Part shown: piece by piece, positions 57,834-60,636 of the stretch | Position numbering within the stretch: position 1 is the first letter of the stretch | How the letters are laid out: each line of letters begins with the position of its first letter | NCBI RefSeq assembly: GCF_025999095.1 | Contig: NZ_AP024678.1 | Location: 1,891,527 to 1,955,526 of the forward strand | Direction of reading: 5' to 3' | DNA from: Thermosynechococcus sp. | Lineage (GTDB): Bacteria; Cyanobacteriota; Cyanobacteriia; Thermosynechococcales; Thermosynechococcaceae | Length of the DNA stretch: 64,000 nucleotides | Notes under the pieces: generated by a model | Databases searched by the model: none | The model's input: the letters and a program-made list of their open reading frames with translations, nothing else | What the model was told of the DNA's origin: nothing | Translations under genes and position numbers: made by a program

Positions 57834-58565
57834 ATGGTTTCTGTCACGCCGTCTCGAGCTGCTGGAAGTGCCAATGCTATGATGACTGGTCAGGGCTATC
57901 AGCATCAGTTACACCAAATCCATCCAAGCCGCACCAATCACTATAGTCTGCGGGACTATCTCCAATTTGATAGCCAACGGGGCAGCATTACCGACTGGTA
58001 TGATCAGCGGATTACCTTAGTGACAGAAGACTTCGTTATTGGTCTAGTGGAAGGTCTCGAAGAGGAAGTTGGACCTGCCTCTACCCTCGTCATGTACAGA
58101 ATTGGCGAAGAATGGGGTAAGCGCGATGCAGCTGTTTTTAAGCAACACTTTGAGCAGGAGTACCAGCGGGAACTACGGAAGTCTAGTTTAACATTTATTC
58201 TAGAGGCTTGGTGGTGGCCCTTTACAACCCTAGGCTGGGGGAACTGGGAAGTGGATCTCACGGAGCAAAAGAATGGTTTTATGTTCATCAATATCTTTGA
58301 CTCCGTGGTAGCACGCACCCTGGGGGATGTGGGCAAACCGGTCTGCTATATCTATGCTGGTCTATTTGCCGGCTTCTTTTCGGGATTGATTCAAAAGCCC
58401 CTGGGTTGCATTGAGTTGCAGTGCTACGCCATGGGGGAAACCTACTGTAAGTTCCTTGTCGGTAAACAGGATCGCATTGATGCTGCTGCCTTCTGGCAAA
58501 ACGAAGGAGCTACGGCACGGGATATTGAAAAACGCCTGCGCCAAGGGGAGCTGGTGAAACGATAA
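57834..58565 (+). CDS. V4R-domain protein
   Basis: 243 residues. The C-terminal part (about 130-215) is a V4R (4-vinyl-reductase-like) small-molecule-binding domain: ILEAWWWPFTTLGWGNWEVD, YAGLFAGFFSGLIQKPLGCIELQCYAMGETYCKFLVG with three cysteines typical of V4R. The N-terminal part (about 30-125) is a helical domain with DFVIGLVEGLEEEVGPASTLVMYRIGEEWGKRDA. The two next genes are phycobiliprotein-like. A similar association exists in the Synechocystis slr0144-slr0152 operon, implicated in photosystem II assembly; I am recalling this and cannot check it. Confidence 0.85.
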   Translation: MVSVTPSRAAGSANAMMTGQGYQHQLHQIHPSRTNHYSLRDYLQFDSQRGSITDWYDQRITLVTEDFVIGLVEGLEEEVGPASTLVMYRIGEEWGKRDAAVFKQHFEQEYQRELRKSSLTFILEAWWWPFTTLGWGNWEVDLTEQKNGFMFINIFDSVVARTLGDVGKPVCYIYAGLFAGFFSGLIQKPLGCIELQCYAMGETYCKFLVGKQDRIDAAAFWQNEGATARDIEKRLRQGELVKR

Positions 58566-58623
58566 GCGATAGGAGAGTGTGTTCATTTATTTTCTAGCGA
58601 TATTTTCTAGCGAGGGTTGCCCT

Positions 58624-59097
58624 ATGTTCCGTCAATTGAATCACCTAACCATTGCTGCCGATGGTCGCTATGCCCGTCCTGAGGAGTTAAACTTTCTGCG
58701 GGATTATCTGGCCTCGGTGGAGACTCGCATCAGTGCCTACGAAAAAATCCGTGCTGAGGCGGAGATGATGGCGGATAAAATTCAATCTATGCAAAAGGCA
58801 GAAAATCCCCGCTGTTTCCATTTCGTCAATGGCGATCGCTCAGAAATCTGCCGTCGTGACTTGGTGGATACAATTCGCCTGTGCGCTGTGGCAATGCTCT
58901 TTTCCGAGTTGGATTTGCTACGGGATAACTTCCTGCTCTGGTACCGCACCATTGTCAAATCCTTTAACTACGAACAGAGCGCCTCCTCCACCTACGGCAA
59001 GTACTTGCCAAATTTGATGAAACAACTACTCACGCCGCAAGAACAACAGGTCATGGAGCCTGTCCTTGCTCTCAGCAGTTCGATTTTGGCAGAATAA
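58624..59097 (+). CDS. Phycobiliprotein-fold protein (first tandem copy)
   Basis: 157 residues of phycobilisome-domain character: DGRYARPEELNFLRDYLASVETRISAYEKIR, then SEICRRDLVDTIRLCAVAMLF and a C-terminal helix region. The motif C76-x-R78-D79 aligns with the bilin-attachment cysteine, Arg and Asp of allophycocyanin/phycocyanin (CxRD), and LRDNFLLWYRTIVKSF resembles the next helix pair. It lacks the length and N-terminal pair of true alpha/beta antenna subunits. It is likely an accessory phycobiliprotein-like protein. The in-frame start 15 codons upstream is rejected. Paralogue of the next gene. Confidence 0.8.
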   Translation: MFRQLNHLTIAADGRYARPEELNFLRDYLASVETRISAYEKIRAEAEMMADKIQSMQKAENPRCFHFVNGDRSEICRRDLVDTIRLCAVAMLFSELDLLRDNFLLWYRTIVKSFNYEQSASSTYGKYLPNLMKQLLTPQEQQVMEPVLALSSSILAE

Positions 59098-59132
59098 TTA
59101 GCAATATTAAATTTAGAACTGGGTGCCCAAAC

Positions 59133-59603
59133 ATGCTGCGTCAACTGGAAAGGCTTAGCCTTGAGACGGATGGTCGCTATGCCAGTGCCCAGGAGCTGGA
59201 GTTTCTGAAAAATTATCTAGCGACAGCAGAGCAGCGCATTAGTGCCTATGAAAAAATCCGGGATGCTGAGGAGAAAATCCTTGATGAAGTGGAGCGGCAA
59301 CTGCGAGCTAGAAATCCCTACATTTTCCGTAAGGGCAATCAAGACTATTCAGCCGTGTGTCGGCGCGATCGCCGGCATGTACTTCGCCTAGGGGCAGCCG
59401 CGATGTTATTTGCGGATTTGAATGCCCTGCGGGAGGGTTTTTTGCTGTGGTACCGCACGATTATTAAAGCCTTCAGGGATGAGAAGGCAGCGCAGCTAAC
59501 GTACCAAGTCCTGCCTGAGGTGGTCAATCAAGCTCTCTCTAGTGAGGAAGCACCTTTAATGCAACCGGTGATGAGCCTGACCCAGTCTATTCTTGGGGAA
59601 TAG
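59133..59603 (+). CDS. Phycobiliprotein-fold protein (second tandem copy)
   Basis: 156 residues, clearly a paralogue of the preceding protein over the whole length (shared DGRYA, ATAEQRISAYEKIR, CRRD, MLFADLN, LLWYRTI and the ILxE end). It keeps C76, R78 and D79 at the same positions. It starts 35 bases after the first copy stop. The two copies could form a heterodimer, as phycobiliprotein subunits do; this is inference. Neither carries the linker or antenna-specific features that would make it a phycobilisome subunit. Confidence 0.8.
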   Translation: MLRQLERLSLETDGRYASAQELEFLKNYLATAEQRISAYEKIRDAEEKILDEVERQLRARNPYIFRKGNQDYSAVCRRDRRHVLRLGAAAMLFADLNALREGFLLWYRTIIKAFRDEKAAQLTYQVLPEVVNQALSSEEAPLMQPVMSLTQSILGE

Positions 59604-59751
59604 GCTAGCTCAACTGAGCCGTGGGGCAAAAATGCGCTAGCCTAGAAGCACCGATTGTACTGGGGAACTTATTACTCCTGCAATCGCCTTTGGCGTACCA
59701 TTGGTATTCACCGCTATAGTATTACTAAGATTCATTGGGATACACAAAGGC

Positions 59752-60636
59752 ATGACCATATCGGCGCAGTTGCTGCAACGGGCAGATTTGATCGGTACAC
59801 AGGTAATTACCCGTGATACTGGTCGGAAGTTAGGCGTCATTAATCAAGTTTGGGTCGATATTGACCAGCGGCAAGTGGTGGCCTTGGGGGTACGCAATAC
59901 CCTCTTTACCGGGGAGCAACGCTACATCCTTCTCGACAGTATTCGCCAAATCGGTGATGTCATTCTCGTTGAGCACGATGATGATGTCACGGAGGCTCTT
60001 AATACCTACAACTACAGCACACTGATTGATAGTGAGATTGTGACGGAAACCGGCGAAGTGCTGGGTAAGGTACGGGGCTTTAAGTTTGATCCAGAAACGG
60101 GTGACATTACGGATTTGATTTTGGCTTCCATTGGCTTCCCTTGGATTCCGGCCCAACTGATCAGCACCTACGAGTTGCCCATTGAGGAAATTGTCAGCAC
60201 TGGGCCTGATCGCATTATTGTCTTTGAAGGGGCAGAAACCCGCCTGCGGCAATTGACCGTGGGACTCTTAGAACGGGTTGGCTTGGGGGCACCCCCTTGG
60301 GAAAGCGACGAGGACGAGTACTATCAACCTGTGACGCCGAGCAGTAATCAATTGCCTTCAGGGGCGCGATCGCCCGTCTATCCCCCCCAACGCAGCCGCA
60401 GCGATTACGACGAAGTCGATTGGGAAACCGCTCGCCGGCGGCGCCGTCGCGAACCCGAGTATGTGGAGTACGAGGAGGAGTATGAGTACGAAGAGCGCCC
60501 TCGGCAAGTCAAGCCGCCTGCTAAGGCCATGCCGGTAGAACTGCCGGAATCGGAACCCACTGTCGATCCTTGGGAAGAACAGCAACCGATTCGCCTTGAG
60601 CAGCGGCAAAAGCAAGAGGAATACGATCACGAATAG
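59752..60636 (+). CDS. PRC-barrel protein with a charged, Tyr/Glu-rich tail
   Basis: From ATG 59752 the protein has 294 residues. Two PRC-barrel units are seen (about 1-78 and 80-165), with DRTGRKLGVINQVWVDI-like and SEIVTETGEVLGKVRGFKFDPETGDI. The tail (about 190-294) is disordered, with Arg-rich (TARRRRRREPEY) and Tyr/Glu-rich (EYVEYEEEYEYEERP) stretches and a Pro/Glu end. PRC barrels in cyanobacteria are linked to photosynthetic membrane and RNA-processing proteins. A TATAGT lies about 35 bases before the start. The role is unknown. Confidence 0.82.
   Translation: MTISAQLLQRADLIGTQVITRDTGRKLGVINQVWVDIDQRQVVALGVRNTLFTGEQRYILLDSIRQIGDVILVEHDDDVTEALNTYNYSTLIDSEIVTETGEVLGKVRGFKFDPETGDITDLILASIGFPWIPAQLISTYELPIEEIVSTGPDRIIVFEGAETRLRQLTVGLLERVGLGAPPWESDEDEYYQPVTPSSNQLPSGARSPVYPPQRSRSDYDEVDWETARRRRRREPEYVEYEEEYEYEERPRQVKPPAKAMPVELPESEPTVDPWEEQQPIRLEQRQKQEEYDHE

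Follow-up and report, generated by a model that had tools for sequence, protein, structure and literature searches.

The pap operon of Synechocystis sp. PCC 6803 (slr0144-slr0152) is a cluster of V4R, Fe-S and BBAG genes whose proteins have been linked to photosystem II assembly (PMC4853703 and PMC9145668). For Slr0144-Slr0149, interactions are stated to have been confirmed by affinity-purifying Slr0149 tagged with GFP (PMC9880817). V4R gene trees (PMC13326532) and further literature on function (PMC4862242, PMC7189237) are also available. BBAGs are globins with a phycobiliprotein fold; their functions are described as not yet known, and the cyanobacterial clusters are said to have disappeared from many genomes and to occur in duplicate in others (PMC10151467). 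V4R domains also occur in the sensors MopR, PoxR and DmpR, in which zinc is held by three cysteines and one glutamate (PMC10715001, PMC7264223). Here we describe a trio consisting of one V4R gene and two tandem BBAG genes (G1 and G2) in a 64,000-nucleotide stretch of Thermosynechococcus sp. DNA (contig NZ_AP024678.1, positions 1,891,527 to 1,955,526; the whole stretch is referred to as the window). We conclude that the trio is a real, well-conserved and new arrangement of known parts. It is almost certainly part of the known slr0144-slr0152 cluster that has become detached and partly duplicated, because the rest of that cluster lies at a second locus without an slr0149-type gene. The features, in window coordinates, are as follows.

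57834..58565, + strand: V4R protein, a paralogue of the Slr0144 type (V4R clade A, or V4R-A), 243 amino acids, assigned by PF02830 and the V4R tree
58344..58448, + strand: codons for C171-x22-E194-x2-C197-x7-C205 of the V4R protein, a putative metal site that matches the zinc-ligand pattern of MopR, PoxR and DmpR
58624..59097, + strand: G1, phycobiliprotein-fold globin (BBAG) of the Slr0149 type, 157 amino acids, assigned by PF00502 and trees
58849..58860, + strand: codons for C76-R77-R78-D79 of G1
59133..59603, + strand: G2, phycobiliprotein-fold globin (BBAG) of the Slr0149 type, 156 amino acids, assigned by PF00502, a structural model and fold matches
59358..59369, + strand: codons for C76-R77-R78-D79 of G2
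59752..60636, + strand: PRC-barrel protein (PF05239), a neighbour only, located elsewhere in some relatives

An earlier note on this stretch had described a V4R gene followed by two tandem genes for phycobiliprotein-fold proteins, with C76-x-R78-D79 in register, and had called for a search against the Phycobilisome and V4R families. The reading frames and the family matches agree with that description. The V4R protein matches PF02830 (E value, 3.7e-22; 78.6 bits against a curated cut-off of 31), and both globins match the Phycobilisome family PF00502 above the Pfam cut-off (E value, 1.5e-10 for G1 and 1.7e-18 for G2); the PRC-barrel protein matches PF05239 (E value, 2.6e-23). All four genes lie on one strand, with gaps of 58 bases between the V4R gene and G1, 35 bases between G1 and G2, and 148 bases between G2 and the PRC-barrel gene. 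For G1, we prefer the start at ATG 58624 to the listed GTG 58579 because homologues begin there, and for the PRC-barrel protein we prefer ATG 59752 because homologues align from residue 1. Residue 76 is a cysteine in both globins (TGC at 58849 in G1, TGT at 59358 in G2) and is followed by R-R-D in each. G1 and G2 have 77 identities over 157 aligned columns. The motif that they share is homology, not chance, but it is missing from many relatives outside the window's clade. A promoter and terminator scan found 3 promoter-like and 4 terminator-like sites, against shuffle means of 3.5 and 2.8, respectively. A PHROGs search with the V4R protein, G1 and G2 gave no match at an E value of 0.01.

The genome is a single contig of 2.498 Mb, with three V4R matches and eleven Phycobilisome matches (two of the eleven in one frame). 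Some 1.5 Mb along the contig from the trio, the stretch 442.7-445.2 kb groups two V4R genes with a single globin gene; we call this locus L015 (L and G numbers are our handles for loci and genomes). The gene order at L015 is V4R-A (L015:3737-4486, a V4R match that is the second V4R-A copy of the genome), a Pfam-less repeat protein (0145-like), a globin that lacks C-x-R-D, V4R-B, and then 2Fe-2S, TPR and protein kinase genes. Except for the absence of the second globin, the arrangement follows that of the slr0144-slr0152 cluster; Synechocystis gene names and types were assigned by gene order and from the descriptions in papers. Reading of the stretch, together with a Pfam scan of its proteins, found no slr0149-type gene at L015. 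The place of Slr0149, between the 2Fe-2S and TPR genes, holds a G1/G2-like globin in 31 of 51 loci. The contiguous pap order (V4R-A, 0145, globin, V4R-B, Fe-S, globin, TPR, kinase) does not occur in the window.

The V4R partner that had been proposed for the globins is a recurrent one: a V4R gene adjoins two globin genes in 13 of the 29 genomes of the family, namely, all 11 of the window's genus plus G012 and G019, which are one genome each of two related genera. Each of these 13 genomes has a second V4R-A elsewhere, and its only Slr0149-type matches at an E value of 1e-12 are the two of the trio. Wherever the second locus was read (the window's genome, G003, G010, G012 and G019), it was the core cluster without an slr0149-type gene. 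In the relative G016, a single V4R-A adjoins a single globin on one contig, and another contig has the core cluster lacking both. For the V4R tree, we used 123 rows (118 of them different), leaving out duplicate loci, L063, L095, L104, frames of <200 amino acids and matches of ≤60 bits. In this tree, the clade of the window's V4R protein and the core V4R-A copies from the same genomes are sister groups (fork support, 81), and the G016 copy is basal to both clades (94; inner fork, 81). The window's V4R protein is 88-94% identical to the V4R proteins of named Thermosynechococcus contigs. It is likely that V4R-A and the globin left the core cluster together, that the globin doubled and that V4R-A was duplicated; we infer the order of these steps.

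Two side observations concern the cluster elsewhere. Some genomes (L105, which is G046, and L117/L118, which are G170) carry a pair of 2Fe-2S and Slr0149-type genes apart from V4R-A, so there is more than one way for the cluster to break up. A contig binned in a metagenome-assembled genome of Candidatus Gracilibacteria carries a cyanobacterial V4R/globin/Fe-S/TPR/kinase cluster (L095:8917-16000), probably through a binning error.

Trees place the two globins within the Slr0149 type. The first tree had 101 rows and used 20 of the 52 Slr0146-type rows, 14 of these drawn at random. In this tree, G1 and G2 fall inside the Slr0149-type clade (support, 96) and apart from the Slr0146-type core globins (99), while the six antenna proteins of the window's genome form a separate clade (98) with G1 and G2 outside it. 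The second tree had 76 rows, with 6 of the Slr0146 type; L094, L079, L061, L081 and L045, most of which had been long branches in the first tree, were dropped. Here, all 26 G1 and G2 rows form one clade (99/94) within the Slr0149-type clade, and the Slr0149-type and Slr0146-type rows split at 100/100. The G1 rows form one clade (100/99), as do the G2 rows with weaker support (86/78). Because the G1 and G2 rows form one clade inside the Slr0149-type clade, the pair is best read as the product of an slr0149-type gene that was duplicated in tandem.

V4R-A and the Slr0149-type globin go together across the phylum. In 146 genomes drawn evenly from it (E value, ≤1e-60 for V4R-A and ≤1e-18 for the globin), 28 had V4R-A and 28 had the globin; 27 had both, one had each alone and 117 had neither (Fisher P value of 4e-27, not corrected for kinship). 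The genome with V4R-A only, G066, has a weaker globin match near the V4R gene, and the genome with the globin only is G061. Two matches of each gene were found only in genomes of the window's genus, of which the sample holds two. In G064, the globin gene directly adjoins V4R-A.

The closest solved relatives of the V4R protein, by both sequence and fold, are the sensor domains of MopR and PoxR. Its model is of moderate confidence (pLDDT, 67.6). The spacing of C171, E194, C197 and C205 aligns to MopR (5kbe) and PoxR (5fru); for DmpR, PMC7264223 prints Glu172, two residues off the place expected from the present spacing. The Cys-Glu-Cys-Cys pattern, sought anywhere in the frame and not by column, is found in 66 of 66 V4R-A rows and in 0 of 57 V4R-B rows. 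A metal role for the window's V4R protein is predicted from this pattern. We rejected identity with BchJ (bacteriochlorophyll 4-vinyl reductase), for which the score was 16.4 bits against an NCBIfam equivalog cut-off of 74.3.

The phycobilisome-type fold that the earlier note had read from the helix pattern is supported by the PF00502 matches and by a model of G2 (pLDDT, 94.3) that resembles allophycocyanins. The model matches allophycocyanins end to end, with template modeling (TM) scores to G2 mostly of about 0.8. Among the 50 matches listed, most of them phycobiliproteins, Z scores are 16-19, and the best is 8ddy_A (Z score, 19.0). In HMMER sequence alignments, which rather than a pocket in the model set its place, C76 of G2 falls on the cysteine of the allophycocyanin C-L-R-D. 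We take the latter to be the bilin-attachment cysteine. For counts of C-x-R-D and of single columns, we omitted duplicate loci (L001-L003, L010, L012, L013, L016, L025-L029, L036, L040, L046-L049 and L063), a split gene in L057, rows of <100 amino acids and rows of ≤30 bits. The 48 other Slr0149-type rows do not include loci L110-L119, whose seven clear frames of this type were counted separately; antenna columns were counted in five antenna rows of the window's genome, with the L004 row left out. C-x-R-D is present in 26 of 26 trio globins, in none of the 52 Slr0146-type rows, in neither of the two weaker globin frames of G066 and not in the core globin of the window's genome. Conservation of the motif is unusually strict within the window's clade; elsewhere the motif has often disappeared. 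Two Slr0146-type globin frames (L068:6897 and L108:4834) contain a C-L-R-D string outside the bilin-cysteine column. R85, nine residues after the cysteine, is found in all 26 trio globins and all 5 antenna rows, and an acid at column 11 is found in 13 of 13 G2 rows and 2 of 13 G1 rows. These columns pair across subunits in an alpha-beta interface; for G1 and G2, such an interface is no more than a possibility.

The explanation that we consider most likely, with a probability of roughly 0.6, is that the trio encodes a complex of the V4R protein and bilin-bearing globins that acts in photosystem II assembly or repair. The V4R protein and the products of G1 and G2 would form a complex, and each globin would hold a bilin, most likely phycocyanobilin, at C76. 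At the thylakoid, the complex would carry pigment and act, not as an antenna, but as an accessory factor or a sensor while photosystem II is assembled or repaired. Taken separately, bilin on at least one of G1 and G2 is slightly favoured, and for a photosystem II role of the trio we judge the odds to be even. The role in photosystem or phycobilisome assembly proposed earlier survives in its first half, with a photosystem link made likely by the papers on the Slr0144-Slr0149 family; the phycobilisome half is not supported, as the globins lie outside the antenna clade. We consider it improbable, though worth stating, that G1 and G2 occur only as a heterodimer comparable to the phycobiliprotein alpha-beta unit, which would have arisen independently from one Slr0149-type globin. 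With a self-attached bilin on each globin and a duplicated, zinc-holding V4R protein as dedicated partner, the pair would provide the window's clade with a second, separately controlled pigment-sensing factor for photosystem II.

Several points weigh against a bilin-bearing photosystem II factor. PMC10151467 cautions that the genes next door, slr0150-slr0152, which are absent from the trio, may be the ones responsible for the photosystem functions. In G052 and G170, a long distance separates V4R-A from the globin. The bilin tests described in the text consulted cover heterotroph BBAGs only; these bound bilins without lyases in Escherichia coli, one of them poorly and with low fluorescence where measured (PMC10151467). 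C-x-R-D is found in only 30 of the 48 other Slr0149-type rows, the cysteine being lost in 13 through at least 4 changes on the tree (70 rows), and in only 1 of the 7 further frames, which come from the phylum sample and were chosen for odd gene orders. Because the motif is missing in so many rows outside the trio, covalent bilin cannot be needed across the whole Slr0149-type family. Finally, positions 82, 83 and 89 are not tyrosine in the trio globins, whereas tyrosine occupies them in 4, 4 and 5 of the five antenna rows, respectively.

These motif losses, the lack of C-x-R-D in the core globin and the Slr0146-type rows, and the missing tyrosines are what would be expected if the globins had kept the fold and the cysteine without holding bilin, as structural docks for a V4R protein that binds a chlorophyll precursor or another hydrophobic ligand. 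We regard this alternative as possible but doubtful: C-x-R-D is intact in every trio globin even though G1 and G2 share fewer than half of their columns, D79 is kept in 13 of 13 Slr0149-type rows that lack the cysteine, as if the pocket were still in use, and the heterotroph BBAGs do bind bilins. The missing tyrosines are also in line with a non-antenna role. That G1 and G2 are minor, allophycocyanin-like antenna subunits of the phycobilisome is hardly credible, despite allophycocyanin being the closest solved fold and apcB the top NCBIfam match of each globin. The apcB scores of 17.2 bits (G1) and 35.1 bits (G2) are far under the cut-off of 228.15, and we rejected identity as a phycobilisome subunit on these scores and on the position of both globins outside the clade of the genome's six antenna proteins. 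Moreover, the globins adjoin a V4R gene in 13 of 13 trio genomes, and slr0149 homologues named "apcA" have likewise been judged non-antenna (PMC6002478). The trio lies about 100 kb from the closest PF00502 match of antenna type. The PRC-barrel gene, which the earlier note had named together with the trio, is on the same strand and is adjacent in 10 of the 11 genomes of the genus (the exception is L026, which is G010), which speaks for one functional operon with the trio. Such an operon is very improbable: the gene lies apart from the trio or its counterpart in G010 (of the same genus), G012, G016 and G019, although each of these genomes has V4R beside a globin, and the gap before it is much longer than the two gaps within the trio.

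Outside the cyanobacteria, one stretch of a Methylococcaceae contig (L094) encodes a heme oxygenase (on the opposite strand), a 2Fe-2S protein, V4R-A, a repeat protein, a globin with C-T-R-D, a V4R-B-like protein (found with phmmer but without a Pfam match), a bilin reductase of the ferredoxin-dependent kind and a kinase. This stretch resembles the pre-PcyA clusters of PMC10151467 and counts in favour of the bilin-bearing complex. Its repeat protein (L094:9657-10643) and the 0145-like protein of the window's genome (L015:4263-5036) hold the same gene position and carry 6 and 5 copies, respectively, of loose F-F-x-x-L-N/P-W-like repeats; BLASTP between them gives short, weak matches only. The repeat may be a docking motif common to both types of cluster. 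Over 247 columns, the L094 kinase (L094:11945-13669) shares 35% identity with its counterpart in the core cluster of cyanobacteria. The association with a kinase may be older than the cyanobacteria, which we treat as only a lead because kinases are common.

The identity of the trio is well supported, and its mechanism is inferred. The trio stands apart from the TPR and kinase neighbours that confuse work on pap, so it can be deleted or expressed separately. If G1 and G2 do pair, they would add a second example of a two-subunit unit derived from a single bilin globin. We found no description of the detached trio in the literature open to search, which leaves out most subscription papers as well as supplements. 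The accessible text of PMC10151467, supplements apart, does not mention a two-globin layout and names Thermosynechococcus once only, in the reference list.

Compared with described systems, the trio is closest to the pap operon, as its V4R-A and Slr0149-type globins belong to the same gene set. It differs in being detached, with its own V4R-A copy and a tandem globin pair where pap has a single globin, and in lacking the 0145, Slr0146-type, V4R-B, Fe-S, TPR and kinase genes. Like the cyanobacterial BBAGs of PMC10151467, G1 and G2 combine a phycobiliprotein fold and C-x-R-D with the company of a V4R gene and a clade apart from the antenna proteins; in the trio, however, two globins stand in tandem beside one V4R. 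The V4R domain of MopR, PoxR and DmpR is the closest solved fold to the window's V4R protein and has the same Cys-Glu-Cys-Cys pattern, whereas the latter has only the V4R domain above the Pfam cut-off, with no AAA+ or DNA-binding domain. Allophycocyanin subunits match G2 over the whole length of the fold and have their cysteine in the same alignment column, but identity is only about 15-26% among the fold matches listed, and the two belong to separate clades.

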